From a virus: a stretch of 37,479 nucleotides of DNA. The DNA is taken from the IMG/VR virus record IMGVR_UViG_3300035181_002369, positions 1 to 37,479 of that record; one strand, written 5' to 3'. Position numbers and translations under genes: made by a program. Positions 7,835 to 37,479 of this stretch are shown in pieces; positions within the stretch are counted from its first letter, which is position 1; each line of letters starts with the position of its first letter. The notes below the pieces were generated by a model that searched no databases, was not told the origin of the DNA, and saw nothing but the letters and a program-made list of their open reading frames with translations.

Positions 7835-7835
7835 C

Positions 7836-13700: not shown

Positions 13701-14827
13701 TGTCCCCTCGCCGGCAGCTCTACCTCGAAGGTGCCGAGCGGCACGATCTGCCCCTGGATTTCGTTGAGCGCAGCGATCTCGGGCCAGCGGTCAGCGGACC
13801 CCAGCTCGGCGCGCGCCACGTCGGCCAAGGAGGCCCCAGGCCGCACGCCGATCACCTTGGGCTTGCGTGAGGCGAAGGCATCGAAGACCGCGACGACCGC
13901 CCCGGCCGCGTCGTGCGAGGCCGAGGCCATCGACCCGACGACGCCCTTGGCTGCGGCGAGCGCCGTGACCCCCTTGCCCGCGGCCAGGTAGTCGTCGGCG
14001 GTGTCGTGCAAAAGGCTGTCGAAGTCGTTGACGACGTTGCCGAGCGAGCGCGCGGCGGCGAGCGTCTCGTTGACCAGGGCCGCGGGGGCGCGGGCGAGGT
14101 CGCCGACCTTGCGGAGCGAAGTGCGCAGGCTCGACATGCCCTCGCGCATCCGGCCGATCCCGCCCCGGAGCGAGTCGAGCAGGCTCGGGTCGAGCAGGTC
14201 GCCCTTGGCCAGCGCCGCCCCGAGGGCCGCGGATGCCCCGCCGAGCGAGCCGGCGATCTGCGGGGGCGTCTGCAGCGCGCGGGCCGGGACGAAGGACGAT
14301 CCGTCCCCCGTCCACTCCCACGAGAGGACCACGCCGAGATTGGTGCCCGCCGCGGCCCCCAGCTGCCCCGTGGTGACGTCCACCTGGTAGCCCCGCCCCG
14401 GACGCCCGGACACCTTGCGCAGCACGCCGCGGCGGGTGAACCCGGCGACCTGCACCAGGCACTCCCGGCCCCGGCGCTGCAGCGTGACAAAAAGGGCGAG
14501 CAGGTCTTCAGGGCTGCCCACCGCGGGCGCGTTGGCGGCCTTGATCTGCGAGGGTTTCATGAACGCGGCGTCCCAGGAGAGCGTCAGCTCGCTCGTCCCC
14601 CAGGTCACGCCGGTCACCGTCGAGAAGCCTCGGTCAGCGCCGATCGGCGTGTAGCCGGAGCCCCGCAGCTCGCTCGCCCACTCGGCCCCGCGCTCGACCA
14701 TGAGGCCGTCGCGTAGCTCGACCGTGATCGGCGCCGAGCCTTCCAGCTCCGTGACCCCGAAGACCTGGAAGCCTCCGCTGCCCGCCTTGCTGGCGGTCTG
14801 CGCGACGTCGAATGCGGATACCGCCAT
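13697..14827 (-). CDS. Tail protein with C-terminal LysM-like domain
   Basis: A 376-residue protein one base after the tape measure stop. The N-terminal 170 residues are beta-rich (ITVELRDGLMVERGAEWAS, GYQVDVTTGQL), the middle (about 190-320) is helical and Ala-rich, and the last 52 residues (VIGVRPGASLADVARAELG ... WPEIAALNEI) match a LysM-like domain with the usual xPGxSLxxVA and NxI elements. Proteins with this end are found between tape measure and hub in many contractile tails (gp53-like) and lock the baseplate to the tube. Confidence 0.75.
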   Translation of the reverse strand: MAVSAFDVAQTASKAGSGGFQVFGVTELEGSAPITVELRDGLMVERGAEWASELRGSGYTPIGADRGFSTVTGVTWGTSELTLSWDAAFMKPSQIKAANAPAVGSPEDLLALFVTLQRRGRECLVQVAGFTRRGVLRKVSGRPGRGYQVDVTTGQLGAAAGTNLGVVLSWEWTGDGSSFVPARALQTPPQIAGSLGGASAALGAALAKGDLLDPSLLDSLRGGIGRMREGMSSLRTSLRKVGDLARAPAALVNETLAAARSLGNVVNDFDSLLHDTADDYLAAGKGVTALAAAKGVVGSMASASHDAAGAVVAVFDAFASRKPKVIGVRPGASLADVARAELGSADRWPEIAALNEIQGQIVPLGTFEVELPARGQ

Positions 14828-14828
14828 G

Positions 14829-17000
14829 TCAGAATCCCATTCCCGGGAGCGGACCGGCGCGCACGACGCCGGTGGCCCCCTTGAGCGTGTCGACGATCTG
14901 GCGGCGCGTCCGCACAAAAATGGCCTCGTCGTTGCCGTCGCCGAGGTCCCACTTGATCGTGATCTCCTGCTTGCCGCCGCCTCCCTTACTGTCGGGAGCC
15001 TTGGCCTTGCGGGCCCCAAGCTCGACGGAGCGGCCGAGGGGGAGGAAGTGCTGATCGAGCATCCGCTTCATCCCGTCGGTCTCGTTGACGAAGAGGTTGG
15101 CGAACACGCCGAGCCCGCCGACCAGCTCGAGCCCCGACTTCTCGAGGTCGGCGGCCGTCTTCTGCGAGGCGACGAGGGTGCCGGCCGCGAGCTGCATCAT
15201 GGCCGTGTCCTGCCGCAGGGCCGCGTCGTTGTAGATCTGCACGAGGGCATCGGTCGGCGTCTCGATGCTGCTGGCCATCATCTGCGTGACGTCGTCGAAA
15301 GCGTTGGCCTTGGCGCTCTCCTGGGCCTGCCCGATGAGGCTATCCAGGTAGTTGTTGGCCGCGGACATCGCCTGGTAGATCGCGTCGCCGTCGTTCGGGT
15401 TGTACAGCTCCTTGATATGCACGAGGTACGTCTGGCGCATCGCATTGATGGCCTCGACGTCGCCGGCCTGCACCGCGTTCCCGAGCTGATCCTTGATGGC
15501 GTCGACGTTCTGCTCGGCGCCGCTCTTCTTGTTCTCCGGGTAGAGCTTCGTCGCCTGGTCGACTGCCGCCGCCACCGCGGCCGAGGCGAGCACGTAGGGC
15601 AGGGCCGCGACCGCCGCCGCCCCGACCGCCGCCGCGCCCGCGCTGAGGCTCGCGCCGACGCCGCCCGCGGTGGCCGCTGCGCCGCCGGCCCCTGCCACCG
15701 CCCCGGCGCCGCCCGTGACGAGCCCGTAGGCGCCCTGGGCTGCGCTGTAGAGGCCCGAGGCGACGGGGGCCGCCATGCCGGCCGCCTTGACCGCCAGGAG
15801 GGCTTCCGCGATGTGCTTCGCCCCCGTGGCGAAGTCGCCCCCGCCCATCGCCTTGACGAAGTCCTGGGCCTTCGAGGCGGCGTCGGTGATGAAATCCCGC
15901 ACCTCGCCCGCGTAGCCCTTGATCTCGCCCCAGTGGTCGGCGAGCCAGGTCGAGCCCTTGACGAGCTTGTCCATCCCGCTGTGGACGAGGTCCCCGATGA
16001 TCTCGACGGCCGACTTCGCCCCGAGGTTCATGTCGGGGAAGATGCGGTCGGCCTGCAGCCCGATGCGGCGGAAGCCGATCTCGGCCTCGCCTCCGATGCG
16101 CGACAAACTTCGCTTGAACTTGTCGTCGTCGAGCAGATCGATCCCGCCCGTCGTGAGCCCCCCGAGACCCTTCTTCACGAGGTTGAAGAGGGGCCCGCCG
16201 ACGAGGCTGCCGGCGTTCTTGAGCACGTCGGTGGTGGTCGAGAGGAGGCCGGTCATGGACTGCCCCGCCATGTTCGCGGCGTCGCGAAAGGCCGGATTGC
16301 CGAGGGCCTGCGCGATCTTCTCGTAGCGCTTCTCGGGGGAGAGCTTGTTGAACTCCTCGGCCTTCTTGATGCCGAGCGAGGGGATCGCGACCATCGCCCG
16401 GAAGAGCGGCTCGTGGGCCCCGGCGATTCCCTGCAGCATCCGCATGACGTCCGTGCCGGCCTGATCGAAGGCGATGCCGAGCGCGGGGGCTGCGGCCATC
16501 GTCGACTTCGTCAGCTCGTGCAACTCGTTCATCCCGAGGCCTGCGCCGATGAGGGGGCCGGCGATGCTGCTGGCGACGTTGACGAAGTCCGCCGTCTCGC
16601 CGGCCGAGCTGATCGCGTCCCGCCGGAACTCCTTGAAGAGGTCATCGGAGGCGATCTTGGCCTTCTCGAAGGGGATCTCGGCCGCCGCGCCGATGACCGA
16701 CCCCAGCTGGATCGACTTGTCTTCGAGCATGCTCAGGTTGGCGCCCACGGCGTGCGCCGCGCCGATCGAGGCCGAGAGGGCGACGGCGCCCGCGAGCCCG
16801 GCGACCTTCGCCGTCGTCACAAGGGCCGATGTCGCGAGGTTGGCGAGCCCGCCGGCGGCCTCGTAGAGCCCCCCGGTCATTTTGCCGAAAGACTTGCCGA
16901 GGCCGTCAGAAGCCTTCGCCACCTTGATCAGCTCGGACTCGGCCGCCGCGCCCCCGGAGACCTTGAGCGAGGCCTCGACCAGATACGATACGTCAGCCAC
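14829..17000 (-). CDS. Tail tape measure protein
   Basis: A 723-residue protein starting at GTG 17000, overlapping the previous stop by 8 bases. It is mostly helical, with Ala/Gly-rich hydrophobic stretches at about 60-85 and 405-475 that resemble membrane-inserting segments of tape measure proteins, and a polar C-terminus with KGGGGKQEITIKWDLGD. Length and the position after sheath, tube and chaperones and before the hub are diagnostic. With the usual rule of roughly 0.15 nm per residue the tail would be near 110 nm; this is an estimate only. Confidence 0.85.
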   Translation of the reverse strand: MADVSYLVEASLKVSGGAAAESELIKVAKASDGLGKSFGKMTGGLYEAAGGLANLATSALVTTAKVAGLAGAVALSASIGAAHAVGANLSMLEDKSIQLGSVIGAAAEIPFEKAKIASDDLFKEFRRDAISSAGETADFVNVASSIAGPLIGAGLGMNELHELTKSTMAAAPALGIAFDQAGTDVMRMLQGIAGAHEPLFRAMVAIPSLGIKKAEEFNKLSPEKRYEKIAQALGNPAFRDAANMAGQSMTGLLSTTTDVLKNAGSLVGGPLFNLVKKGLGGLTTGGIDLLDDDKFKRSLSRIGGEAEIGFRRIGLQADRIFPDMNLGAKSAVEIIGDLVHSGMDKLVKGSTWLADHWGEIKGYAGEVRDFITDAASKAQDFVKAMGGGDFATGAKHIAEALLAVKAAGMAAPVASGLYSAAQGAYGLVTGGAGAVAGAGGAAATAGGVGASLSAGAAAVGAAAVAALPYVLASAAVAAAVDQATKLYPENKKSGAEQNVDAIKDQLGNAVQAGDVEAINAMRQTYLVHIKELYNPNDGDAIYQAMSAANNYLDSLIGQAQESAKANAFDDVTQMMASSIETPTDALVQIYNDAALRQDTAMMQLAAGTLVASQKTAADLEKSGLELVGGLGVFANLFVNETDGMKRMLDQHFLPLGRSVELGARKAKAPDSKGGGGKQEITIKWDLGDGNDEAIFVRTRRQIVDTLKGATGVVRAGPLPGMGF

Positions 17001-17208
17001 GGCGGGCTCTCCTTTCGGCCTCTCGCTCGCGCCTCTCTTGCTTGCGCACGAGGGCGTCTGCGTAGTGATTCAAGACGACGGTGGGGGTGGTCCAGAATTC
17101 CGACCAGGAGAGCCCCACGGTCTCGGGGTCGCAGAAGCTCGCCGCGCGGTCGTACACGTCCGCGATCAGGGCCTCGTAGCCGGGGGACCGGGCACCCCTC
17201 CGGGCCAT
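16993..17208 (-). CDS. Second tail assembly chaperone-like small protein
   Basis: A 71-residue protein starting at ATG 17208, 16 bases after the stop of the preceding chaperone gene. The sequence PGYEALIADVYDRAASFCDP ... WSEFWTTPTVVLNHYADAL is helical with an aromatic core, followed by a Lys/Arg/Glu tail. In phages this position, between tube and tape measure, holds the second chaperone, often made by ribosomal frameshift. No clear Shine-Dalgarno precedes this ATG, and its frame stays open upstream to 17391, so a frameshift product is possible. Confidence 0.55.
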   Translation of the reverse strand: MARRGARSPGYEALIADVYDRAASFCDPETVGLSWSEFWTTPTVVLNHYADALVRKQERREREAERRARRG

Positions 17209-17224
17209 GGCCCAGAGGAGAGGC

Positions 17225-17707
17225 TCAGCCGACGACGCGAAAGGATTTGAGGGCGGCCTCGCGATTCTCCTCGCTGGCCGAGTTGGCGAGGTTGAAGGCC
17301 TGGTAGGCGATGTTTCGGCCCTGAAAGCCCAGCTCCTCCCAGACCGCGGGGGCATCGAGCTTCGGCACGCGCTTCCACTCGCCCATGCCCCTCACGCCGT
17401 CGTCGTCCGGGGCCTTCGCGCTGGCGATGGCGACCACGGATTTGCGGGCCGTGAAGGTCTGCGCGACGACCATCGCGCCGGCCCGCTGCGCCTCGTTGAG
17501 CGCCTCGATCTCCTCGGAGGCGGTCAGGTAGACCATCCGGAGCCAGACGCCGTCCTTGCGATGGTCCTGGTCCCACATCTTCGAGCCGATCTTGAGGCAT
17601 GCGCCGGGCACGAAGATCTCGTAGCCGGGGCGGTCGAACTTGTCGGCGGGGCGGGGCAGGCCGCCCGAGGTGGTCCCGGGGGCTTCGAGGTTTTCCATGT
17701 CGCTCAT
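17225..17707 (-). CDS. Tail assembly chaperone
   Basis: A 160-residue soluble protein beginning ATG at 17707, overlapping the tube stop by ATGA. It has a beta-strand region (YEIFVPGACLKIGSKMWD, VWLRMVYLTASEE) and a helical C-terminus (AYQAFNLANSASEENREAAL). Place and size fit the first tail assembly chaperone (gpG-like), which binds the tape measure during tail assembly. The family was assigned by context, not by a motif. Confidence 0.6.
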   Translation of the reverse strand: MSDMENLEAPGTTSGGLPRPADKFDRPGYEIFVPGACLKIGSKMWDQDHRKDGVWLRMVYLTASEEIEALNEAQRAGAMVVAQTFTARKSVVAIASAKAPDDDGVRGMGEWKRVPKLDAPAVWEELGFQGRNIAYQAFNLANSASEENREAALKSFRVVG

Positions 17708-18144
17708 ACGATCTGCACCTTGTAGCTTTTGCCTTTGCCCTTGAGATCCAGGGTCAAGAAGTCCGTCCGCGACCCGAGGTCGAAGGGGAGGCCCTCCCAG
17801 TGGATATCCCGGAAGGTGATCTGCAGCGTGCTGGCGTCGGGGCCCGCCATGCGGATCTGCGCCGCGAATTCGTCCGCGCTCTTGCCCTCGGCCTTGGCCT
17901 TGAGCAAGTTGACGAAGGTGACGAACTGCGCCGCGTTGTTGATCTCGGCCTTGCAGCCGAACTCGTACCCGTCGGCAAACTCCCGATAGTCGGGGCCGAG
18001 TTCGCCGATGAACTCCTTTTTGACCAGCTCGTAGGGAAAGCTGAAGGAAAAGGACTCGATGTTGACGTCCGGGATCAAGGCATCCTGCGTCGTCGAGTCG
18101 ATGATCGAGATGGCGCCTTCCTGGCCTGAATATCTGAGAGCCAT
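17704..18144 (-). CDS. Tail tube protein
   Basis: A 146-residue protein 8 bases after the sheath stop. It has the size and pattern of contractile-tail tube proteins: N-terminal strand, central ELVKKEFIGELGPDYREF segment, and closing strands (TLQITFRDIHWEG, FLTLDLKGKGKSYKVQI). Hexamers of this protein form the inner tube. The neighbouring sheath and chaperone genes support the call. Confidence 0.8.
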   Translation of the reverse strand: MALRYSGQEGAISIIDSTTQDALIPDVNIESFSFSFPYELVKKEFIGELGPDYREFADGYEFGCKAEINNAAQFVTFVNLLKAKAEGKSADEFAAQIRMAGPDASTLQITFRDIHWEGLPFDLGSRTDFLTLDLKGKGKSYKVQIV

Positions 18145-21648: not shown

Positions 21649-22211
21649 AGGAGCCTCCCCGTGGGCGAGAGTTGCCCGTTGCCGAAGGGCGCCGAGGCCT
21701 CCTGCGAGCTGAGCTTGAGGACCCATCCGAAGCGCCGCGCGTCGCGAAAGGGAACGCCGTTGATCGTGAATTTGCGCACCGGGCGGTCGGGCGCGGCGCC
21801 GTCTCGCTCGTCGGCGTAGATTTCGACGCTGGTCTCCTGGGCCTGCGAGACGCGGCCGTAGTTGACCAGCTGGGCTTCGGTGTAGGTCGGGTCGAGTTCT
21901 TCGAGGACCGCGACCCCCTGCTCGACGACGCCGTTGAGCGCCTTCGACCAGGTGCCCGAGAGCGTGACCTTGGGGGGCACCGGGCGGCTCTGGCAATCGA
22001 AGCCGGAGCGCAAGGGCTCGCGCAGGATCTCGACCTCGCGGCCTCGCCCCTGCTCGCCCTCGGGCCACTCGGTCACGACGATATCGACCCGGTAGGGCCG
22101 GTCGCCGACGCAGCCGTGGACGCGGCCCCGGATGCCGGCAGCACGGGCCGCCAGGCGCTCGTGGAGCGTCTGCGGAGCCCGCGGCGAGGTGACGGGGGGC
22201 TGGATGCTCAC
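21645..22211 (-). CDS. Neck/connector protein, unassigned
   Basis: A 188-residue protein with GTG start at 22211 inside the preceding stop. Alpha/beta, with strands YRVDIVVTEWPEG and TSVEIYADERDG and a C-terminal VPFRDARRFGWVLKLSS. Located in the connector run between capsid and sheath. No family was recognised; a neck or head-closure role is inferred from place. Confidence 0.55.
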   Translation of the reverse strand: MSIQPPVTSPRAPQTLHERLAARAAGIRGRVHGCVGDRPYRVDIVVTEWPEGEQGRGREVEILREPLRSGFDCQSRPVPPKVTLSGTWSKALNGVVEQGVAVLEELDPTYTEAQLVNYGRVSQAQETSVEIYADERDGAAPDRPVRKFTINGVPFRDARRFGWVLKLSSQEASAPFGNGQLSPTGRLL

Positions 22212-22648
22212 GGGCGCCAGTTCCCGTTGATCCCGCCACCCCCGCCACCATCCGCGAGGTCGGAGGCGACGTTGACGGGGAAGTCGACCAAAGCCGAGAG
22301 CCTGGCGCGGGCGCGGGCGATCAGCCGCTGCGTGAGGGCGATGCCTTGGCGAGGGTCGAGCGTGATATCCGACACCCGCGTCACGGCGAGGTCACTACCT
22401 CCGCTGCCGCAGTCGCCGAGGGCCTGGCCCAGGAGGCGAGTCTCGGCTGCGTTGATCTGGTCGGCGAGGGCGAGAGCCTGGGCCTTCGCGGCCTCGCTCA
22501 GCTCGACGATGTGCCCGAGAAGCTGGTAAGCAATCGGGCTCGACGACGAGGCAAAATCCCCATGAACGACGACCGTGCGACGCGAAGACGGATAGAGCAG
22601 CGCCGTCGCCACTCGCCCGTATTCGTCATCCAGCCAGCTCGTCGTCAT
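22208..22648 (-). CDS. Head completion/connector protein candidate
   Basis: A 146-residue protein starting at ATG 22648, 22 bases after the capsid gene. N-terminal beta region (RRTVVVHGDFASSS), helical middle (AKAQALALADQINAAETRLLGQAL, seen at about 55-78) and a polyglycine end near the C-terminus. The first gene after a major capsid gene is often a connector (gp6/gp15-like). No motif was recognised. Confidence 0.55.
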   Translation of the reverse strand: MTTSWLDDEYGRVATALLYPSSRRTVVVHGDFASSSSPIAYQLLGHIVELSEAAKAQALALADQINAAETRLLGQALGDCGSGGSDLAVTRVSDITLDPRQGIALTQRLIARARARLSALVDFPVNVASDLADGGGGGGINGNWRP

Positions 22649-22670
22649 GGGGATTGGTCACGGCTCAGGG

Positions 22671-24170
22671 TCAGTAGGACGAGCCGTGCTCGAGGACGAC
22701 CGCGCGCTTGTAGGGCCGCGCGTCCGACAGATCCGACGAGGCCGTGGTGTCGGTCGGCAGGATGAAATCGAAGGTGTTGCTGACGGTGATCGTCGCGGTC
22801 AGCATTCGCTCGTCGATCGGGGGCCGGATCAGCAGGCGCCAGCCGTCGACGTTGCCGGCGACGATCTGCGTGCCGCCGAGCTGGTAGGCCGCGAGGTTGC
22901 TGCTGAAGTCGTGGATCTTCTGGCCGCCGACCATCTGGATGTACTGCATCTCGTCGACGGCCGACTCGATCAGCACGCCCGCGCCGGTCATCACGCTGCG
23001 GCGGATGACGACGCCCGAGGAGTTGACGACCGGGAGGCCGTTCTCCCGGAGCTGGAGGGACGATCCGGGGGTGCCAGCGCCGCCGGTGCCGACGTAGCTG
23101 GTATTGACGCTGCCGCCCGTGCCGCCGACCGCGACGGTGTCGCCCTTACCGTTGGCGGGGCTGTCGTTGTTCTCGATGATCGTCAGGCCGAGGGCCGGGG
23201 AGAAGGCCGAGCCGGCGCCGAAGATGGGCGAGAGGCCCTGCGTCTGGAAGGCCTGGCGGTAGGCCGTGTCCTGCGTGATCTTCTCGAAGAAGATGCTATC
23301 GACGTGCAGGTGGTACGTGCCGGTCGAAGGGTGGGGCATAATACCCTGGTCCTTCAGCTTCGACCGCATCCGCATGATATCGTTGAGCGTCGGGATATCC
23401 GTCGCGATCAGGGCCTCGGTCGAGGCGCGCGAGACGCCGGGCGTTGCGCTGTTGGACCGAATGATGAAGGGCGCCTGGTTGGTCGCGTAGACGTAGCTCT
23501 GCGCCGCCACGGCCGCGCCGAAGGTGGAGTCGAGCTGCAACTCACCCGGTCCGTCCGGAAAGTCCGGATCGATCGGCAGGACGCCCGTGACGGAGCAGGT
23601 CGTGATGGTCGACGCGGCGACGATGGTCAGCGGGATCTTGTTGGTCGAGCTGACGGCCGTCTGGACGCCGTTGACGCTCTTGAAGCGGAAGCCCGCGAGG
23701 CTGTCGACGAGCAAGATGGACTGGCCCGAGGACTGCGCGCGGCGGATGATCGTGTACCCGCCCGCGGCGGCGAAGAGGCGCTGGCGAGCCTTGCGCGACA
23801 TCGTCCGGCCTGCCCACTCGGCGAGGCGCGTGATGCCCTGCGTGTTGTAGTCGCCGATCTCCGCCTAGGCGGTCGGCGCGTCCACGTCGAAGCTCTGCGC
23901 GTAAGGCTGCGGAGCCGCGGTGAACTGCTCGACCGCGAACTGCCCGCGGGACGTCGCTCCGGTCGCCTGCGCGGGCCGGAGGTCCACGCCCATCGCGCCG
24001 AGGCGGTTGAACAAGGCCGTCTGGCCGGTGCCCGGGGGCAGCGGGATACGGGTTGCGTCGGCGCGGTATTTCGCCTGCGACATGAGCGTGTCGAAGATGA
24101 TCCTCGACAGCATGTTATTTTGGATGATGTTCCCGAGACCTGCCGGGATACCGGATGGCACGAAAGGCAT
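22671..24170 (-). CDS. Major capsid protein gene interrupted by in-frame amber codon
   Basis: One frame of 499 codons plus stop encodes a major capsid-like protein, but codon 102 (23867-23865) is TAG. Residues 1-101 (start ATG 24170) have an N-terminal arm and a loop typical of N4 gp56/P22-type coat proteins. After TAG the same frame continues without a break (AEIGDYNTQGITRLAEWAG, then from ATG 23801 a 376-residue stretch with NDIMRMRSKLKDQGIMPHP and VIRRSVMTGAGVLIESAVDE). The coat protein is essential, so either readthrough, a recent nonsense mutation, suppression by the host, or a sequence error must be considered. TAG is an ordinary stop in the small terminase, large terminase and fibre genes, so the code is not changed overall. 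It follows the scaffold gene as expected. Confidence 0.75.
23865..23867 (-). other. In-frame TAG codon inside the capsid gene
   Basis: On the coding strand the context is GCC TAG GCG, in frame with both flanking capsid segments. No start codon with a good Shine-Dalgarno follows closely; the next ATG (23801) is preceded by GGCCGGACG only, so re-initiation would drop about 122 residues. Confidence 0.9.
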
Positions 24171-24184
24171 GGCGGATAACTCCT

Positions 24185-24916
24185 TCAGCTGAACGATTTG
24201 CCGCCGCTGGCGTGCCAGGCGCGGATCTGCTCGGGCGTGGCCTTCATCGCGTCGAAAGCCGGCTGATCGCCGACAGCGGTGCGGCTCCCGGGCGGAGGCG
24301 CCGCGGGCGAAGTGGTGCCCCAGGGCGAGGCCTGCGCCTGCATCTGCGGAGATGCCGCGGCCGGTGGCGCAAAAAGGTAGGGGCGCGACGCCTTGAGCGC
24401 CTCGAAGTGCTTGGCCTCGTCGTAGTCCTTCCCCTTGGCCTTCTTCTCGGCGGCGACGAGCGCCTCGGCGAGAATCCGATCAGCGGGGTTGACGCCCTGG
24501 ACGTCGCAGAGGTCGCGGAAGGCCATCTCGGCGCGCAGCTGCTTCACCTCGGCCTCGCGCTCGTCGGCGCGTGCCTGGGCTTTCGCCGCGGCGTCAGCGG
24601 TCTCGCGCAGGGCCTTGTCGCGCTTCTCGGCGTCCGAGAGCTTGGCCTCCTCGGCCTTGCGCGCCGCGTCTTTGTGGACCTTGTAGGCGTCCTCGTCGGC
24701 GAACCCGAGATCCTTGAGGGTCTCGGCGCGAGCCGCGGCGCGCACCTCGGCCTCGATGGCCTTGCGGTCCACCGTGACAGCCGGAGGGGCCGCAGGGGCC
24801 GCAGCGGGAGCGGGCGAGGCGACGACCGCGGCGACGACCGCGGCGGGGGCCGCAGCGGCCTCCTTGCCGGCTTCCTCGCGCAGCACGCTCATGAAGTAGA
24901 GGCGACCGAACAGCAT
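24185..24916 (-). CDS. Capsid scaffolding protein candidate
   Basis: A 243-residue, highly charged, helical protein. An Ala/Pro-rich N-terminus (about 20-45) is followed by a long coiled-coil region (residues 50-160; EVRAAARAETLKDLGFADED, then repeated Ala/Glu/Lys heptads) and a Pro/Ala-rich tail ending ATPEQIRAWHASGG. This is the usual composition and place (just upstream of the capsid gene) of phage scaffold proteins (GP20-like). ATG at 24916 overlaps the previous stop (TGATG); ATG at 24892 is an alternative start. Confidence 0.7.
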   Translation of the reverse strand: MLFGRLYFMSVLREEAGKEAAAAPAAVVAAVVASPAPAAAPAAPPAVTVDRKAIEAEVRAAARAETLKDLGFADEDAYKVHKDAARKAEEAKLSDAEKRDKALRETADAAAKAQARADEREAEVKQLRAEMAFRDLCDVQGVNPADRILAEALVAAEKKAKGKDYDEAKHFEALKASRPYLFAPPAAASPQMQAQASPWGTTSPAAPPPGSRTAVGDQPAFDAMKATPEQIRAWHASGGKSFS

Positions 24917-25326
24917 CAGAAGACACCCGCGTAGGTCGGGTCGTTGATCGCCTTCTTCGTGATACCGCCGACCTTCGTCGGGTCGCCGGTGACGTAGGTC
25001 ACGTCGCAGGTGCCCGTGCCGGTCGTCTCGGCGTTGAAGGTGATCGATGTGCCAGCGAGGTTCGCCGCCACCTGACCGACCGCGGGCGCGACGCCGTTGG
25101 CCACCGGGGTCTTGGGAGCCGGAGCGCCCGTGCCGACGGTCTTGGCGGAAATGATTCCGATCACGGTGAAGCTCGGCGTGCAGGCCGCGCCGGAGACTGC
25201 GAGGGCCTGCTCACGGACGAGGCGAATACCGCCCTCACCGGCCAGGATGTTGCCGAGTCCGATGTCACGCGCGGCGGACTCGAACTTGTTGAGGTCGCCG
25301 GTGTTGAGAACGTCTTGAAGGGCCAT
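24916..25326 (-). CDS. Small virion protein, possibly head decoration
   Basis: A 136-residue Gly/Thr/Ala/Val-rich protein with a helical start (LNTGDLNKFESAARDIGLGN) and beta-rich remainder (ITFNAETTGTGTCDVTYVTG). A GGAAAGG Shine-Dalgarno 7 bases upstream supports ATG 25326. Two cysteines. It lies between a structural gene and the scaffold, where decoration or head-fibre proteins are common, but no family is recognised. The start lies inside the neighbouring 3' reading frame, an unusual 166-base overlap. Confidence 0.6.
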   Translation of the reverse strand: MALQDVLNTGDLNKFESAARDIGLGNILAGEGGIRLVREQALAVSGAACTPSFTVIGIISAKTVGTGAPAPKTPVANGVAPAVGQVAANLAGTSITFNAETTGTGTCDVTYVTGDPTKVGGITKKAINDPTYAGVF

Positions 25327-26036
25327 AAAGATGCCTTTCCAGCGACCCAGAACCGGGCGCCGTTGCTGGTGCCGGACACCTCGATCAGCCGAGGCAGTCC
25401 GCTTGTGGGGAATGTCTTGAGGAAGGGCCCCGCGCCGACCCGCTGGTCATCGCCCGAGCCGTAGACCGTGGCGACGGTGAGCCCGAGCAGGGCCGCGGCG
25501 GTACCCGACACGACCTGGACAGATCCGGATTGCCGGCCCGCGGTCTTGGCGTCCGCGCCGCCCGTGAGCAGGCCGGAGAGCCGCAGGAAGCCGGTCGCGG
25601 TGTCGACGCTGGCTACCTGACTGCCGCCGGCGAAGAAGTTGATGCGCGCGGCGACCTTGGCGATCGTGGTGTCGCCCGCGACGAAGGTGGTCGTGAACTG
25701 GCTGCCGCCGTCGACCGCAAGCACGAGGGTTTCTGCGCCGACGATCGATGGGGCCGCGGTCGTGCCGAGCACGCTGGCGACGGCGCCGCCGGTGCGGAGG
25801 ACGAGGTCACTGCCCGGCGGGATATCCGCCGCGAGCCGCTCGACCTGGGCCGTGGCCATCGGGAGCTTCGTGAAGACAAGCCCCGTGATCCCGCTGGTCG
25901 CCACGTTCAGCGGCGTCGCATCCACGTAGTCGTGCGTCGTCGGGACCGCGTCCTGCACCGTGACCGCCTGCGTGTAGGCAGCCTGCGACGGGTCAGCCGT
26001 CGTGATCTGGCACTGCGCGCGGAAGGTGCTGGACAT
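25161..26036 (-). CDS. Virion structural protein with IN-motif-like module
   Basis: A 291-residue open frame whose first 235 residues look real. Residues about 98-195 hold a module very close to one in the sheath (ETLVLAVDG...TFVAGDTTIAK...RIN...LLGLT...GSGDD). Signal peptide and membrane segments are absent. From residue 236 on the frame runs through the next gene in another frame and becomes Ser/Pro/Arg-rich, so the true C-terminus may be near 25330 and an indel or frameshift may have removed the stop. ATG 26036 has GGAAGC close before it. Position in the head module argues for a capsid-surface role, though the module is also found in tail proteins. Confidence 0.6.
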   Translation of the reverse strand: MSSTFRAQCQITTADPSQAAYTQAVTVQDAVPTTHDYVDATPLNVATSGITGLVFTKLPMATAQVERLAADIPPGSDLVLRTGGAVASVLGTTAAPSIVGAETLVLAVDGGSQFTTTFVAGDTTIAKVAARINFFAGGSQVASVDTATGFLRLSGLLTGGADAKTAGRQSGSVQVVSGTAAALLGLTVATVYGSGDDQRVGAGPFLKTFPTSGLPRLIEVSGTSNGARFWVAGKASLWPFKTFSTPATSTSSSPPRVTSDSATSWPVRAVFASSVSRPSQSPARPARRASP

Positions 26037-26128
26037 GCTTCCGGCGAAGGATGACGGGAGGTGGGTAAACGGCGCAAGTGCCCGAGATCGCGCAGCAAAA
26101 GATTGGTCGCATTGCTGCTGTATTGAAT

Positions 26129-26169
26129 CACCAGGCTCGCTGTCTTGTTGTTGTAATCAATCACTGGTG
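26129..26169. promoter_or_regulatory. Inverted repeat, possible operator
   Basis: CACCAG at 26129-26134 and CTGGTG at 26164-26169 form a 6-base inverted repeat; the right half abuts the proposed -10 box of the regulator gene. Ribbon-helix-helix repressors often bind such short sites near their own promoter. The arms are short, so chance is possible. Confidence 0.25.
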
Positions 26170-26183
26170 CTAGGATGGCTTCA
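26148..26183 (+). promoter_or_regulatory. Candidate sigma70-type promoter for the plus-strand cassette
   Basis: TTGTTG (26148-26153), a 17-base spacer and TAGGAT (26171-26176) precede the regulator ATG at 26183. Transcription would begin at or very near the ATG, suggesting a leaderless message; alternatively AGGA at 26172-26175 acts as a Shine-Dalgarno for a longer transcript. The region is clearly less G+C-rich than its neighbours. Confidence 0.4.
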
Positions 26184-26350
26184 TGGCTACCGAGCGGAAG
26201 AAGATGCGAAACATCCGGGTCTACGCCAGCGATGACATTGTCGCGGCCCTCCGGACGGCGAAGGCGGCGACAGGTCTGGTCAGCGACTCGGAGGTGGTGA
26301 GGATGGCGATCAAGGAGCTGGCCGACCGGGTCGGCAAGAGGGCCGCTTGA
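26183..26350 (+). CDS. Ribbon-helix-helix transcriptional regulator
   Basis: A 55-residue protein with the layout of Arc/CopG-type regulators: a basic N-terminus, a short strand (RNIRVYAS), helix A (DDIVAALRTAKAATG), a turn (LVSDSE) and helix B (VVRMAIKELADRVG). Such proteins dimerise and insert the paired strand in the DNA major groove. It heads a plus-strand cassette divergent from a head gene and probably regulates its own promoter. Its stop overlaps the TTG start of the next gene (TTGA). It could instead be the DNA-binding antitoxin of a small module, but the next gene has no toxin hallmarks. Confidence 0.75.
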   Translation: MATERKKMRNIRVYASDDIVAALRTAKAATGLVSDSEVVRMAIKELADRVGKRAA

Positions 26351-26538
26351 TCCCCCTCGGCCTCACCGACGAGGACCTCGCCCGCGTTGCTGCAGCGATG
26401 GCCGAGCAGGGTGTTCCCGGGCCCTACACGGTCGACGGGCGGCAGGTCTGGACGGTATCCACCGGGACCAACATGCCTCGGGCCCTGTGCGGCAACCGCC
26501 ACGAGCGGCGGGCCAGTGCGAAGGGGGCAGGGCGATGA
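26347..26538 (+). CDS. Small unknown protein of the regulator cassette
   Basis: A 63-residue protein starting at TTG 26347 with AGAGGG 5 bases before it; ATG at 26398 is an alternative. A helical start (LTDEDLARVAAAMAEQG), a short strand (YTVDGRQVWTVS) and a basic end (CGNRHERRASAKGAGR). The last segment, NRHERRAxAK, resembles C-terminal tails of small phage proteins. Its stop overlaps the next ATG (ATGA). Function unknown. Confidence 0.55.
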   Translation: MIPLGLTDEDLARVAAAMAEQGVPGPYTVDGRQVWTVSTGTNMPRALCGNRHERRASAKGAGR

Positions 26539-27038
26539 CCTGCCCGCCCATCCCCGACCGCGCTTTCGGCCCCGCGTGCCCTGTCTGCGAGGGTGCAGGG
26601 CTCGCCTCCCTCTCGTCGCGCGATAAGAACCCCTACGATGTCACCTACTGCCCAGCCTGCGGTGGGGAGGGCAGCGTGCCGCCGGTAGAGGGGGAGGCGT
26701 GCGGGCCGGATACCCCGGAATGGATTCACGCCGACGAGGTGGGCAAGGTCACGCGGAGCTTCCCGCTGCTGGCAGACGCCACCCACCTGGCCCTGCTCAA
26801 CCTGGACGAGCCGTGCAACCGCACCTTCCTTTGCCGCCTGGACGCCGGTCAGCGCACGACAAGGTAACGGGTCGCGGGGGAAGCCTTCGCGGGCCATCTT
26901 GTCGAGGATCTCCGATAGCTCCCGGCCGTTGTCCTGGAGCATGATCAGAATCTCCGCGTCGTCAGCGGTGATCCGCCCCTTGGCGCGCACGAAGGCAAGG
27001 GCGCCCGGGATGTCGTTGCGATCAGGGAAATCCATCAC
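26424..27038 (-). CDS. Head-module protein with antisense-overlapped 3' part
   Basis: The open frame has 204 codons from GTG 27038 (GTGA overlap with the MuF gene; ATG at 27035 also possible). The first 55-60 residues look like a real helical protein (DIPGALAFVRAKGRI, DDAEILIMLQDNGRELSEIL). After about 26865 the frame is the exact opposite strand of the zinc-protein gene and has the irregular Arg/Gly/Pro composition of a shadow. The cassette may have inserted here and cut the original gene, or the gene truly overlaps convergently. Only the N-terminal portion is supported. Confidence 0.4.
   Translation of the reverse strand: MMDFPDRNDIPGALAFVRAKGRITADDAEILIMLQDNGRELSEILDKMAREGFPRDPLPCRALTGVQAAKEGAVARLVQVEQGQVGGVCQQREAPRDLAHLVGVNPFRGIRPARLPLYRRHAALPTAGWAVGDIVGVLIARREGGEPCTLADRARGAESAVGDGRAGHRPAPFALARRSWRLPHRARGMLVPVDTVQTCRPSTV
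26535..26867 (+). CDS. Zinc protein with paired CxxCxGxG motifs
   Basis: A 110-residue protein. Two DnaJ-type zinc motifs, CPVCEGAG (about residues 16-23) and CPACGGEG (about 40-47), face each other over a 16-residue loop and should bind one zinc. The rest is acidic, with PDTPEWIHADEVGKV and a helical LLADATHLALLNL. Third gene of the plus-strand cassette (ATGA start), ending in TAA, convergent with the head-module gene at 27038. An adaptor or regulatory role is plausible; no catalytic site is seen. Confidence 0.65.
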   Translation: MTCPPIPDRAFGPACPVCEGAGLASLSSRDKNPYDVTYCPACGGEGSVPPVEGEACGPDTPEWIHADEVGKVTRSFPLLADATHLALLNLDEPCNRTFLCRLDAGQRTTR

Positions 27039-28870
27039 TTCCGCATGTAGCGGTCCTCACGCACGGCCGCAACGAAGCCGTCAAGATGCGCGCCGGAGAG
27101 ACCGAGGGCGCGGCCAAAAGCGGCCGTGTGCTGGTCGGGTGTCGCCAGGGTCGCCTCGGTCGATACGCCCGGCGCCCGCATCGCCTTGACTGCCTCCTCG
27201 ATCTTCGACGGGATCGCGGTGCGGCGCGCGAGGGCTTCGGCGGGCGCGAGGCCCGCGGGGATTGTGGCGTTGGCGACGTGGGTGGAAAGGCGCTCGATGT
27301 ACCTGTCGTAGGAGCCGGTGCGGCCGTGGTAGTAGCTGTCCGAATCCGGGTAAGGGAGCGGGCTGGCGAGCGGGTGGTTTGTGGGCACGCGGTCGGGGTC
27401 CAGGCGGAGCGCGCGGGCGAGGACGCGGCGCGCGGTCAACTCGGTAAGCGCTTCTTCGATTCCGACGCCGTGGCGCTGGTAAGCCACGGGCTTGATCCGG
27501 CTCGTGCCGTGGATTTCCTCGTGGACGAAAGTGCGGATGCCCTCGATCTGCTCGCGGGCGAGCGCGAGGCCCTGCGCGGCTGCGCGCATCCCCTCGACCG
27601 CGTGGCGGTAGACGTCCTGCCGCACCTCGATCGCGCCGTCCCAGTAGTGCATGGCCCGGACGCTGCCGCCCTCGGGCTTTGTGGTAAGCGACCGCGCCCC
27701 GGACCTGCCCTCGGCGACGTCGACCGAGGGGAGTCCCTGGCGCTCGAGGATCGACCGGATGGCGCTCCGCATCTTTGCCTGGCTGCCGTCCGCCTCGGCC
27801 CGCACGAAGAGCCTGGCGGCGCCCGTCATGGGCGGAGGAGGAGCCGCCGGCGCCAGCGGGGCGGCAGGCGGCGGCAGAGGGGCAACCAGGGCCGCGGGCG
27901 GGGCCACCACGGGCGGAGGGTTGGGCAGGGCCAAGGTGGGCGTCTGCGGCAGCGGCACGGGGGCCGGCGCAGGCCGCGGGGCAGCCGCCTCGGGCCCCTC
28001 CCACTCGTCCCTGTATGGTATCAGAACTGCTCTGTCATTGGGCCGTCCCGGAGGAAGCAAGTACACCCGCCCGGCCCCGTCGACGAAGGACTCGTCGAGC
28101 CCGCGCACCTCGCCGTGCGCCGCGTAGCTGTCAGGGGCCGTGCGCCGATCGAAGGTCTCGACGAGCCGCCGCTTGAGCCCCGGCCTCGCCTGGTCTTGCG
28201 CCCTCATCTCGGCCTGGGCGCCCTCCGCATAGGCCGCCATCGCCTCGGTCCTCACGATGCGCCGCGCCCACCCCTGGCCCTCCACAATCAGGCCCGGGGT
28301 CCGCTCGCTGCCCGCGAGCCGCTTCGCCATCGTGTCGAAGGTCTGCCCGGTGAGGACGCCGAGCTGCAGCTGCCGCCCGATGGCCCCGATCGTGTGGGTC
28401 CCGTACCGCGCAACGCTGGCCTCGTACCTGAGCAGGCGCGGGTGCTCCAGGGCGAGCGCAGCCCGCACCGCGAGGGGCCTCGTCGGCACGGCGCCGGCCT
28501 CGAAGTACCGGAGGACATGGATCACGCTCGCCTGCCCGAGCCCTGTCGCCGTGACCCCGCCGCGGGCGAGCAGGCGCACCATCTCGGGCGCCACGAGGGC
28601 CAGCACGGCGCGGACCTGGGCAAGCGAGGCCTCCGCGTCCTGCGCGGTCCAGCTGGCTCCATGGCCTGCCTGCCGGAGCCCCGCAAGCCGCTGCCGCAGG
28701 TCTGCCTCCGAGCGGGCGAGCAGCTGGGCCAGCTCGCGGTCTCCGCGCCGGATCACCGCCCGCTCGACCTCGGCCCGGTCGGCGTCGATCAGATCCTGGA
28801 GCTTCGAGCGGGCCTGGGAGGCCGGGACCGGCTCCGAGAGGGAGCGGGGGACGACGGGAGGCCGGGTCAC
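27035..28870 (-). CDS. MuF-like minor head protein fused to HExxH metallopeptidase-like domain
   Basis: A 611-residue protein starting at GTG 28870 (GTGA overlap). Residues about 1-150 are helical; 150-295 match the MuF/SPP1 gp7 minor head family (ARRIVRTEAMAAYAEGA at about 202-218, ETFDRRTAP at 238-246, AHGEVRG, then PPGRPNDR), without the usual final CRC. A proline-rich linker (298-348) leads to a C-terminal domain with HEEIH at 450-454 and EEALTEL at 472-478, which fits an HExxH zinc peptidase with a downstream Glu ligand. MuF proteins enter the head and can be ejected with DNA, and MuF-toxin fusions are known in phages. A peptidase delivered into the host, or a head maturation protease, are both possible. 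Neighbours are the portal and head genes. Confidence 0.7.
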   Translation of the reverse strand: MTRPPVVPRSLSEPVPASQARSKLQDLIDADRAEVERAVIRRGDRELAQLLARSEADLRQRLAGLRQAGHGASWTAQDAEASLAQVRAVLALVAPEMVRLLARGGVTATGLGQASVIHVLRYFEAGAVPTRPLAVRAALALEHPRLLRYEASVARYGTHTIGAIGRQLQLGVLTGQTFDTMAKRLAGSERTPGLIVEGQGWARRIVRTEAMAAYAEGAQAEMRAQDQARPGLKRRLVETFDRRTAPDSYAAHGEVRGLDESFVDGAGRVYLLPPGRPNDRAVLIPYRDEWEGPEAAAPRPAPAPVPLPQTPTLALPNPPPVVAPPAALVAPLPPPAAPLAPAAPPPPMTGAARLFVRAEADGSQAKMRSAIRSILERQGLPSVDVAEGRSGARSLTTKPEGGSVRAMHYWDGAIEVRQDVYRHAVEGMRAAAQGLALAREQIEGIRTFVHEEIHGTSRIKPVAYQRHGVGIEEALTELTARRVLARALRLDPDRVPTNHPLASPLPYPDSDSYYHGRTGSYDRYIERLSTHVANATIPAGLAPAEALARRTAIPSKIEEAVKAMRAPGVSTEATLATPDQHTAAFGRALGLSGAHLDGFVAAVREDRYMRK

Positions 28871-29070
28871 CGGCCATCCTCACCCACGGGCTGTCCGGTG
28901 TAGGGGCAGATCGGGCCGCCGGCCTTCCGTACATGGACCTGCCGACACTGCTCTGTGTGCGAAATCAGGCTGATTTTGGAGGGCCACGGCCCCGAGACAC
29001 ACCAGATGGTCCCAGCGTTGTAGCCGCGAGCCAGTCCATCGGAGGTGAGCGGCACGTCCTCATCGGTCAT
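28867..29070 (-). CDS. Small Cys-containing protein between portal and MuF genes
   Basis: A 67-residue protein, ATG 29070 overlapping the portal stop (ATGA), ending in the GTG of the MuF gene. It contains GTIWCVSGPWPSK, HTEQCRQVH and GPICPYTGQP, three Cys with nearby His, suggesting a small metal-binding fold; a fourth ligand may be His. No family recognised. Coupled translation with portal and MuF genes suggests a head assembly or DNA-entry role. Confidence 0.55.
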   Translation of the reverse strand: MTDEDVPLTSDGLARGYNAGTIWCVSGPWPSKISLISHTEQCRQVHVRKAGGPICPYTGQPVGEDGR

Positions 29071-30674
29071 TCTGCTGCCTGCTTTCCGGCGTCGTTCGCC
29101 GCTTCTTCGGGGTCTTCCTCGGCCTCCGGGCCAGCCTTCTCGGGCACCGGCCCCGCGCTTCCGGGCTCGTCGGGGGCGAGGCCGAGGGCCTTCGCGCCAA
29201 GGGCGGCGGCGGCGTCCTGGTCGGCGGCGATCTGATCCAGCTCCTCCTCGACCGAGGTGATCGGGATGGGCAGCGTCTTCAACATCGCCACGGCGGTTTT
29301 TTGCGACAGGATCTGCTTGCCGCCGGTGGCCGACGCGATGGTCGTGACGAGCTTCTGGACGTCGTCGGCCGTCGGCGGAAAAGCCGGGGGCCAGAGGCAC
29401 TCGACGAAGGACGATCGGCCCGGCGTGCGCTCGCTGATGACCTTCGTCCCGAGGGCCTCGTCGACGACCACGCGGGGCGGGATCTTGAGGGCCTGGCGCC
29501 GGCCCCGCAGGATCCGGCCCGCATTGAGGAGGCCCTGGCAGAGGGGGACAATCAGCCCTCGGGCGTAGATGCCGCGGAGGTCGCCGGCCGTGTTGACGAC
29601 CCGCTGGAAGATGCGCTTCAGGGCCTCGCCGCTCAGCGTCTTGCCCATCGTGTCGCGGTCGAGGAGGACGACGCCGCGGCGGCGAAACATCTGCTCGGCC
29701 CTCGTCTTCCCGACCTCCATGCAGATAGTCGCCGAGGCCCCATCCTGGCTCAGGTACTCCGCGCCGCCGCGGGCGAAGATCGTGTTGTACCCGCCCTTCC
29801 TGACCTGCCCCGGGTTGAGGGCGGGGTCCTCTTTCACGACAAGTGTGTCGTCGGCGTTGCGCTTGGTCGTGGCCCCGCCAGCGGCGTAGAGTTCGTTGAC
29901 CTCGTCGACGAGAGCGTGATCTTCGTCGCCGTCGGGCACCCCGTCATGCGAGCCGTCGCGGGCGCGCTGGGGTAGCCAGTAGACGGGGCAAAAGCCAAGG
30001 CCGTGGCTCACGGGCGGCGCGGTTTCTTCCCAGCGCCAGGTGAGGGTGACCGGGTCCTTGACGCGGCGGTAGGTGGCCTCGATTTTCTCATCCCAGTAGC
30101 GGCAGACGAGCGGGTAATCCCCCTCGTCCTTCGCAAGCGGGTTGTCGCCGCGGTAGACCTTGGCCACCGCTGCGGGCCGGTGGCGTCGCTCATCCCGCCA
30201 GGCGAGGGGCCAGCAGTGCTCGGGGCCGTGGACCTCGAGAAAGACCTCCCCCTCGACGATGGCAAAGCTCACGACCGCGGTCCCGGTCGCGCCGCCCATG
30301 TTGCGGGCTGCAGCCAGCGTGGTCGGCAGGTTCGACAGGGTCGCGACCTTGCCGATCCACTCCTCGGCCTCGTCGTCGTCGGCGATCTCCAGGTGACACC
30401 AGGCCTCACCCGAGAGGGTCCACTCGGTCAGCGTCTCGACCGCCTCGCCGACGACGTTGTAGACCGCGCCCGGGTCGCGCTCCGACCAGGCCGGGGTGCG
30501 CGAGGCCGAGCCGTAGACGCCCGGTGTGCGCTTGCGGTAACCGCCCACGTCCAGCTCGCGGGCCTGGTACTGCGTGCCGCGAAAATACCGCGAGAGGGTG
30601 TGGAGGCGCTGGTAGCGCAGGGTGCCCGGGAGCTTGTCGGCGTCAGCGAGGAAGGCTTCGAGTGCGGTATCCAT
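29067..30674 (-). CDS. Portal protein
   Basis: A 535-residue protein that follows the large terminase by 11 bases, with GGAG nine bases before the ATG. Its pattern is like SPP1-type portals: N-terminal helices, a wing with LTWRWEETAPPVSHGLGFCPV, a long stem helix region, LSGEALKRIFQRV, and an acidic Ala/Glu-rich tail (residues about 480-535). Portal dodecamers form the channel at the capsid vertex and dock terminase. Next downstream are the small Cys protein and MuF gene, the usual order. Confidence 0.8.
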   Translation of the reverse strand: MDTALEAFLADADKLPGTLRYQRLHTLSRYFRGTQYQARELDVGGYRKRTPGVYGSASRTPAWSERDPGAVYNVVGEAVETLTEWTLSGEAWCHLEIADDDEAEEWIGKVATLSNLPTTLAAARNMGGATGTAVVSFAIVEGEVFLEVHGPEHCWPLAWRDERRHRPAAVAKVYRGDNPLAKDEGDYPLVCRYWDEKIEATYRRVKDPVTLTWRWEETAPPVSHGLGFCPVYWLPQRARDGSHDGVPDGDEDHALVDEVNELYAAGGATTKRNADDTLVVKEDPALNPGQVRKGGYNTIFARGGAEYLSQDGASATICMEVGKTRAEQMFRRRGVVLLDRDTMGKTLSGEALKRIFQRVVNTAGDLRGIYARGLIVPLCQGLLNAGRILRGRRQALKIPPRVVVDEALGTKVISERTPGRSSFVECLWPPAFPPTADDVQKLVTTIASATGGKQILSQKTAVAMLKTLPIPITSVEEELDQIAADQDAAAALGAKALGLAPDEPGSAGPVPEKAGPEAEEDPEEAANDAGKQAAE

Positions 30675-30685
30675 GGTCTTTGCTC

Positions 30686-32425
30686 CTAGAGGCCGAAGCT
30701 CTTGCGGATATGCTCGGGCACGGCGTCGAGGGGGGACGAGGGGGCGACGGGCGGGAAAGCCGCGGCGATAGCGTCCCAGCCGCCGGCTATGCGCGCCGCC
30801 AGTTGGTCGGGCGGGGGACTTGCCATCTCGCCGGCCCTGTCGTGATGGAAGATCGGGCTGCCGAGGCGCAGCGCGCCCTCCTTCGCGAAGTAGCTGGCCA
30901 TGATAATGTCGGAGGTGTGCGGCCCGCGGGTGAAATCGAGCAGGTGCTGCTGCCACTCGCCGATCGCCTGGTAGGCCGCGCGCTCGTCGGGTGCGAGGCT
31001 GGCGAGGTAAGCGTCAGGCTCCTGCCCTTCCGCGGGCCCGGGGATGACCCACGCGCCGGCGCGCATCTCGACCCCGATGCCCTCGATTCCGAGACTCTCA
31101 TCCCACTTCTTCGACGTCGTCGTGAAATCTTCGATTGGCGTCTCGAAGCCGATCTTACGGGCAAACTGCGCGAGGAAGACCTGCGCCCCGTTGTCCTCGA
31201 CCATGAAGCGGTCGGGCTGGTAGCGGGCCTCCATGGCGCGCATTCGCGACAGGGTCTCGTCGACCGACCAGCGCCCTTTCTCGATCCAGAGGACATGCCG
31301 CCGCCCGTCGCTGTCGACGCCGAGCACGAAGAAGACCGTGAAGTCCCCCTGCCGCTTTTTCTCGTTCTTGCCGGTCGCGAGGTCGACGCCGACGACGACG
31401 GTCATCCGGTCGCGCATGGCCTGCCCGAGCCGGAGAAGGGTCGACTGGTCGCGCAGTCGCCCGTCTCGCGTGAAGGCCTGCGTGACCGTGCGGCGAGGGC
31501 GTAGGCCAGCGCCCTGCGTGCGCGCGAAGGCAAGCCACTCGGCCTTGAAGATGCGCGTGCCCTCGTCCCTCGGATGGCAGAGAAACATGCGAGAATACTG
31601 CGACGGCGACATGCCGCTCTTCTTTTGGTCAAGCCATTCCCGCGAGCGGAAGGAGGGCCAGAGAAGCTCGCCCGTGACGGGGTTCTCGGCGGGGTAGACC
31701 CCGTGCCAGATGCCGGGCCGCTTGGCGTAGGTGAAGGCCAGATCGTCGGGGTGCCAGGCGTTTGCGAGGATGTGAAGCTTGCCCCCCGTGGTGAGGCGGG
31801 ACTGGATAACCGCGTCGACGAAATCGATCGTCTTCTGCCGCTGGTAGTCGGTGAGCGTGTTCTCAAAATCGATCACGTCGTCGAGGACGATGATGTCGGC
31901 GCGGAGCCCCTGGGGTGACCCGTCGATACCGTACACCTCGACGGTGTTGGTCGTCGTGTCGATGCCAGCGCCCTTCACCCGCAGGCGCTCGTCGTTCCAC
32001 GGATCGCCGGGGCGAAGCTCGGGGAAGATTGACCGGATGGTCTCGTTCTGCTCGATCTGCCGCTTGATCTTTTTCAGGAGCTTCGCGGCGTTGTCGGCCT
32101 TCTTTCCGACAATGGCGATACGGGTGCGGGGCTCGAGGCCCATTCGCCAGAGGAGGTGGCCAATGATCTGCTCGCTCTTGCCGTAGCCGGTCGCGCCGTG
32201 AAGGACTGTGATCCGCTCGCGCATCCAGGCCGCGTGCCATTCGCGGTGAAACCACTGCTGCTTGAACGGGGTGTCGCTGGCGTCGGCCTGGTCGTTCTTA
32301 AGGCTCAGCTCGACGAATCGGTTGACGTCCGATCGTGCCTCGCGGCAAACGCCTTGCCACCAAAGCCGGAGAGCCTGCTCGCGCTCCTCGCGGGTGAGGG
32401 CGCGGGGCGGGGCGAGCTGGGTCAC
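30686..32425 (-). CDS. terL: Terminase large subunit
   Basis: A 579-residue DNA-packaging motor. Walker A is GATGYGKS (residues 77-84) and Walker B is IIVLDD (178-183), the ATPase that pumps DNA. The C-terminal nuclease has the RNase H-like acidic residues Asp348 (VGVDLATG), Glu410/Asp411 (VEDNGAQ) and Asp506 (TSDIIMAS), which cut concatemers. GTG start at 32425 overlaps the preceding stop (GTGA). The gene ends with TAG. Packaging type (cos or headful) cannot be told from this sequence. Confidence 0.92.
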   Translation of the reverse strand: MTQLAPPRALTREEREQALRLWWQGVCREARSDVNRFVELSLKNDQADASDTPFKQQWFHREWHAAWMRERITVLHGATGYGKSEQIIGHLLWRMGLEPRTRIAIVGKKADNAAKLLKKIKRQIEQNETIRSIFPELRPGDPWNDERLRVKGAGIDTTTNTVEVYGIDGSPQGLRADIIVLDDVIDFENTLTDYQRQKTIDFVDAVIQSRLTTGGKLHILANAWHPDDLAFTYAKRPGIWHGVYPAENPVTGELLWPSFRSREWLDQKKSGMSPSQYSRMFLCHPRDEGTRIFKAEWLAFARTQGAGLRPRRTVTQAFTRDGRLRDQSTLLRLGQAMRDRMTVVVGVDLATGKNEKKRQGDFTVFFVLGVDSDGRRHVLWIEKGRWSVDETLSRMRAMEARYQPDRFMVEDNGAQVFLAQFARKIGFETPIEDFTTTSKKWDESLGIEGIGVEMRAGAWVIPGPAEGQEPDAYLASLAPDERAAYQAIGEWQQHLLDFTRGPHTSDIIMASYFAKEGALRLGSPIFHHDRAGEMASPPPDQLAARIAGGWDAIAAAFPPVAPSSPLDAVPEHIRKSFGL

Positions 32426-32826
32426 TGCCTGCCCTCAAGCCGGCCGAGCGCGAGGCCCGCGGCGTAATCGGCCATCTGCGGGGGGAGCCCCGAGCCTTCG
32501 ACGAAGGCGGCGCGCAGCTCGGAGACGCCCGCGATCCACCCGCGATGGTGAGCGATGGTGATGAGGTCGCGGGCTGCCTCGACCTGCCGGGGCGTGGCCC
32601 CGTCGCCGAGGATGGCGCGGGCGATGGCGTCCGACTCCGCATGCCACCGCGCGGCGCTCGGGGGGATAGGGGGCGGGGGCGCGGGAGGTGGGCGGTTGAG
32701 GGCAGCCCACACCCGCGCGCTCTCGGCCGCGGCAATCGCTTGCTGCTGCCTGAGCCTGCGCTCGACGAGCCAGAGCGCGCCGCCCATCGCAAGCGTCAGG
32801 ACGCAGAAAAGGACGATCGCGACCAT
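32422..32826 (-). CDS. Single-span membrane protein
   Basis: A 134-residue protein with one N-terminal hydrophobic segment (residues 1-20) that should anchor it in the inner membrane with the rest in the cytoplasm or periplasm, followed by a basic QQ-rich helix, a proline run (about 46-56) and a helical C-terminus (GATPRQVEAARDLITIA, ADYAAGLALGRLEG). Between the 122-residue gene and terminase large subunit; it overlaps the latter by GTGA. Function unknown. Confidence 0.5.
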   Translation of the reverse strand: MVAIVLFCVLTLAMGGALWLVERRLRQQQAIAAAESARVWAALNRPPPAPPPPIPPSAARWHAESDAIARAILGDGATPRQVEAARDLITIAHHRGWIAGVSELRAAFVEGSGLPPQMADYAAGLALGRLEGRQ

Positions 32827-32831
32827 CGGGA

Positions 32832-33200
32832 TCAGGAGTAGTCGGCGGCGGCGCGGGCGCGGGCGGAGACCTCGGGGAACCGCTCGCGGAGCCAGCGGGA
32901 CGCGCCGCCGGGGCCGACCTTGGCCTTGATGGCGGCGTCGACGAGGTCGGCGACCGAGACCGGGTCGAGGGGGGACGCCGCAAGGTCGGGGTCAAAGGCG
33001 AGCCGGGCACCCTCGCCGGCCATGCCCGTGTTGACGCGGTGGGCAAGCAAACCTGCCATTTTGGCCTGATCGCTCTCGCCCTGCGCGGCGATCTCCTGCA
33101 GACCCGGCAGCCCCCCGACAGAGGGCTCGAAGCGGGCAGGGGACGCGGGCGGGGCAGCGGTGTCAGCGGGGGGCGGGAGAACCTTGTCGTCTTTGGCCAT
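32832..33200 (-). CDS. Unknown packaging-region protein
   Basis: A 122-residue protein with a Pro/Ala-rich N-terminus and a helical C-terminal half (VADLVDAAIKAKVG, ASRWLRERFPEVSARAR). No Shine-Dalgarno precedes ATG 33200, unlike most genes here, and it is separated from the small terminase by 37 bases. No family recognised. Confidence 0.5.
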   Translation of the reverse strand: MAKDDKVLPPPADTAAPPASPARFEPSVGGLPGLQEIAAQGESDQAKMAGLLAHRVNTGMAGEGARLAFDPDLAASPLDPVSVADLVDAAIKAKVGPGGASRWLRERFPEVSARARAAADYS

Positions 33201-33237
33201 GGTGGATCAACATACATCATGGTCAACGTGGATGCAC

Positions 33238-33846
33238 CTATCGGCCCGTGACCTCGTCGGCCGGCTTGCCCTCGAGCAAGAGGGCCCGCTCGTTTTCGGT
33301 CGGCGTGCGGCCGTGGAGGACGGCGAAGCGGGCCAGCTCCGGGTGATCGGCGGCGCCGCGCAGGAAGACCGGGAGGTCGTTGCCCGCGGTGTCGGTGGGC
33401 GCGACCTTGAGGGGAGCGAGCGCGCCGGACACCTTGGCGTAGGTCTCGACCACGGCGACGATCGCCTTCGCGGCCTGCCCGGGGATCGGCTCGGCGCGGG
33501 CAAAGGCCAGAGCCTCTTCAAGGTGACCGTAGAGCTTCTCGCGGAACTCATCTATCGTGCCGCGTGCCATCGCGAGCAGCCGCCCCGCCTCGGCCGACGA
33601 CACCTGGACGGTGACGAGGTCGATCCCCCACTCCACCGCCAGCTCGCGGGCCCTCTTCGTCGACCACTGCCCGGAGGCCATGAGATCGGCGATGTAAGCG
33701 ACCCGCTCGGGCACCGGGGGGGCCTTGCCGAAGAGGTGGTGCGGGGGCTCGATGACCGGACCCCATGCCGCGCGCGCGGGCGCCTGACCCAAGGCGTCGG
33801 AGTCAAGGGGGGCGGCGGCCTTTTTCTTGCCTTTTCGCCCGCTCAT
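33238..33846 (-). CDS. Terminase small subunit candidate
   Basis: A 202-residue protein starting at ATG 33846 (ATGA overlap). Basic N-terminus (GRKGKKK), then a helix-turn-helix-like region at about 45-85 (ERVAYIADLMASGQWSTKR, then ELAVEWGIDLVTVQV), and long helices (EKLYGHLEEALAFARAEP, AAKAIVAVVETYAKVSG) suited to a ring oligomer, then a polar tail. Position two genes ahead of the large terminase fits a DNA-recognition small subunit. It ends in TAG. A general DNA-binding protein is the alternative. Confidence 0.6.
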   Translation of the reverse strand: MSGRKGKKKAAAPLDSDALGQAPARAAWGPVIEPPHHLFGKAPPVPERVAYIADLMASGQWSTKRARELAVEWGIDLVTVQVSSAEAGRLLAMARGTIDEFREKLYGHLEEALAFARAEPIPGQAAKAIVAVVETYAKVSGALAPLKVAPTDTAGNDLPVFLRGAADHPELARFAVLHGRTPTENERALLLEGKPADEVTGR

Positions 33847-37474: not shown

Positions 37475-37479
37475 CGACC

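Follow-up and report, generated by a model that had tools for sequence, protein, structure and literature searches.

An in-frame TAG codon in a phage major capsid gene, where a second contig of the same phage has a tyrosine codon, is probably a single wrong base

Background

The coat gene of phage Q-beta contains a stop codon followed by an open frame, and the product that terminates at this stop is itself the complete coat. Some readthrough sites need no RNA structure, and the known amber suppressors include ones that insert tyrosine. A more general route is seen in crAss-like phages, in which TAG is read as glutamine (PMC9523058, PMC11210395), and phages with a reassigned TAG accordingly carry in-frame TAG codons inside structural genes.

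Here we examine a 37,479-base stretch of viral DNA (the window, meaning the whole stretch that was analysed) in which the major capsid frame is interrupted by one TAG. As in Q-beta, the stop falls in a coat gene and is followed by an open frame; unlike in Q-beta, termination would leave a piece of the fold 101 residues long, and other copies of the gene lack the stop. Unlike the reassigned crAss-like phages, the window has a single such codon, still uses TAG as a stop and contains no suppressor tRNA. Streptomyces phage Kromp has the same neighbours as the window (terminase, portal, scaffold, capsid), and Kromp gp7 and the coat protein of phiKX1, both of family phrog_1357, are homologous over their full length across the TAG site, but they are far diverged and have a sense codon there.

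The capsid gene and its in-frame TAG

The capsid frame starts at ATG 24170 on the minus strand, behind an AAGGAG ribosome-binding site, and runs through 101 sense codons to TAG 23867-23865 and then through 397 further sense codons to a TGA (Table 1); a second ATG, at 23801, lies 21 codons past the TAG. A preliminary description had given this same layout, which is exact in the window. We ranked every stop in the six frames that is flanked, in its own frame, by 30 or more open codons either way (n = 304) by a two-sided codon-usage score, from a model trained on genes of the window, with the downstream part of the capsid gene included and the upstream part left out. The capsid TAG came out best, its weaker side scoring 24.3 bits, and third-position GC is 0.87 in the codons leading up to it and 0.95 in those that follow. 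Given the top coding score on both sides of the codon, the TAG-interrupted frame is correctly observed and is not a chance pattern of open reading frames. The runner-up, at 10.9 bits (plus strand, 3613), was dropped, as its frame runs opposite a plausible coding frame on the minus strand. A 510-codon open frame on the plus strand (22647-24179) lies exactly opposite the capsid gene; long antisense frames are common in this 70% GC sequence, and it is probably not a gene.

Table 1. Coordinates of the capsid gene, its TAG codon and associated features in the window
Feature	Position	Strand
Major capsid protein gene, assigned to the HK97 fold; 499 codons plus TGA, with one TAG in the window record	22671..24170	-
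In-frame TAG; TAT (Tyr) in contig 3300035180_002469 of the same phage, which differs at base 23865	23865..23867	-
Perfect 12-base palindrome CCGCCTAGGCGG, present only with the TAG reading	23861..23872	
Capsid scaffold-like gene, upstream; weak PF06810 match, below cut-off	24185..24916	-

Both sides of the TAG had been taken in the preliminary description to belong to one coat protein, and homology and predicted structure bear this out, pointing to one continuous 499-codon capsid gene. The downstream part alone matches the major capsid protein of Kromp. For searches, the uninterrupted 499-residue protein was taken from a second contig of this phage. It matches phrog_1357 ('major head protein'), as do 27 of its 29 homologues, and it matches the capsid proteins of Kromp and of Komagataeibacter phages phiKX1 and phiKX2 across 98% of its length, with 24% identity each to Kromp gp7 and to the phiKX1 coat protein. 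Searches of genome contigs and of the sequences of solved structures for relatives returned none. An AlphaFold2 model built with 29 sequences (mean pLDDT 73, pTM 0.76) retrieved many HK97-fold phage capsids from the PDB with Foldseek, at probability 1.00 and E-values down to 2.6e-9, with modest TM-scores of about 0.3-0.6. Full-length homology and predicted fold thus both identify the protein as an HK97-fold major capsid protein. In the model, residue 102, the TAG site, sits in a loop between a strand (88-97) and a long helix (106-134), so that a product of 101 residues is predicted to lack this spine helix and everything beyond it, and could not be a coat protein.

A second contig and homologous capsids

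The 11,625-base IMG/VR contig 3300035180_002469 corresponds to window positions 21876-33500, and a base-by-base, gap-free comparison of the two found exactly one difference, at 23865. The window has C there (G on the minus strand, giving TAG) and the second contig has A (T on the minus strand, giving TAT, tyrosine). The one base that separates these otherwise identical sequences is therefore the third base of the capsid TAG codon. When all IMG/VR contigs were scanned with a pattern that allowed any base at 23865, this contig was the sole match. For the left half of the window, searches for other contigs of the same phage found none.

The preliminary description had proposed comparison with homologous capsids as a check. 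A profile search found relatives in 51 viral contigs, the same phage counted in, and a search with the large terminase led to two closer phages, whose capsids are 53% (L060) and 46% (L061) identical to this one. Across the 52 homologous loci that cover the TAG site, the codon is a sense codon every time and never a stop. The aligned codon is TAC in L060 and TAT in L061, both tyrosine; two more distant homologues also have tyrosine, and in the remainder the residue is R, K, S, G, A or Q. None of the homologues is divided into two genes at the site, so the arrangement that the same description had named as counting against it, homologues that end near residue 101 with a separate second gene, was not found; all are single full-length genes. 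With tyrosine codons in the nearest relatives and a sense codon in all homologues, tyrosine is most likely the ancestral state of this codon for the group, and TAG a derived state seen in one record.

Origin of the TAG codon

Is TAG read as a sense codon in this phage? It terminates the large terminase gene (30686-30688) as well as ORFs 26424-27038 and 26221-26502, and a coding scan of the window found no other clearly broken frame, the capsid TAG being the one clear case. TAG is not reassigned in the code of this phage, and general reassignment is ruled out by the large terminase stop and the lack of any other clearly broken gene. The earlier claim that the code is not generally reassigned stands; of the genes offered in its support, the large terminase does end in TAG, but ORF 32422-32826, which adjoins it and is the putative small terminase, ends in TGA.

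We consider it likely that the TAG comes from one wrong base in a metagenome-assembled contig. A sequencing, amplification or consensus error would have put C at 23865, and the real gene would have a tyrosine codon there and encode one ordinary HK97-fold major capsid protein. What recommends this reading is that selection should remove real capsid-killing differences and does not see errors: a lone difference of this kind should rarely be met among polymorphisms filtered by selection, and is possible for an unselected error. The base change also converts CCGCCTATGCGG into the perfect palindrome CCGCCTAGGCGG, and the palindrome may itself have been the cause of the error. Random substitutions in this stretch create an in-frame stop in 2.4% of cases and a new 12-base palindrome in 0.5%, figures computed post hoc on a finding picked for its oddness and amounting to no formal test. 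Inverted repeats have been described as an Illumina error context (Nakamura et al., as cited in PMC4787001), whereas PMC4787001 itself disputes the secondary-structure explanation, favours another cause and gives a motif ending in GG as the most error-prone context. The capsid TAG is preceded by no GG-ending motif, which counts against an error. The palindrome leaves error and allele undecided, since real mutations, too, are known to arise when imperfect palindromes are corrected. Also counting against an error, a lone consensus error is uncommon unless coverage is thin, because a contig base is normally backed by several reads, and the same picture would come from a real allele that is in the minority or specific to the sample.

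Such an allele, an amber nonsense mutation truly present in phage DNA, is the foremost rival. It could be a defective allele of the population, which would be carried by intact phage infecting the same cells, or a prophage copy that was inactivated recently, and we regard this joint reading as unlikely though by no means negligible. In its favour, the change is one clean base between phage copies that are otherwise identical, and the coding scan shows no other clear broken frame. A capsid-null allele, however, should not reach consensus in a free phage population, and an inactivated copy should collect more differences, of which there are none in the 11,625 shared bases. Nor did an integrase or host flank come to light in the analyses made of the window.

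Readings in which the TAG is decoded fare far worse. An amber-suppressing host or a suppressor tRNA could insert an amino acid at the TAG and yield the full-length capsid protein, with the phage dependent on it. We hold this very improbable: the window has no tRNA genes, although the record may be an incomplete genome, TAG serves as the stop of the large terminase gene and of other ORFs, and suppression is not required for the life of the phage, as tyrosine is encoded directly in the second contig. A little less credible is a real high-frequency allele that is decoded by suppression or readthrough, so that this variant would depend on a host suppressor and its sister variant would not. Lower still we place programmed readthrough giving two capsid-related products. 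The frame is open and coding on either side of the TAG, as readthrough would need, but the stop is not conserved among the homologous loci or in the second contig, and the 131 bases around it show no stimulating RNA structure, folding no better than shuffles (z = -0.12); an Rfam scan of the window likewise found nothing. In the model the terminated product stops short of the spine helix and would be no coat, so that this would not be a normal coat with a minor extended form. Of the four meanings offered in the preliminary description, readthrough giving a minor full-length coat thus fails on predicted structure, and base error (or a dead allele) is favoured by the second contig and the homologues. 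The least credible reading has two genes, one for a protein of 101 residues and one for a further capsid protein that starts at ATG 23801. This ATG is at least close by, 21 codons on, but it has no evident ribosome-binding site, unlike ATG 24170, and lies within the part of the gene that encodes the predicted spine helix; the homologues, being single genes that run full-length across the site, rule the arrangement out.

The in-frame TAG is thus a true observation on the sequence that, judging from the contigs and homologues, is most probably not a feature of real biology. In an assembled viral sequence, one base is enough to make an essential gene look recoded at a stop codon, and comparison with another copy of that phage brings the imitation to light. 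Should the allele prove real and be decoded, an amber-dependent variant would exist in nature beside its intact twin, and would offer a useful test of natural suppression.

Other features of the window

The portal ORF as listed (29067-30956, minus strand) begins 270 bases inside the large terminase gene (30686-32425, minus strand), and the true portal start is probably further downstream. A 611-residue protein (27035-28870, minus strand) has a Mu F-like head morphogenesis domain (PF04233, just below cut-off). The head-gene half of the window has IMG/VR relatives at 45-55% identity, unlike the left half (1-18000), where the two long ORFs tested, 6440-7834 and 11892-13700, have none. ORF 6440-7834, on the plus strand and so opposite in strand to the head genes, has a weak Baseplate_J match (PF04865, just below cut-off). 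A DnaB-like replicative helicase frame (35517-37478, minus strand) runs off the end of the window, and the record is therefore probably a fragment.
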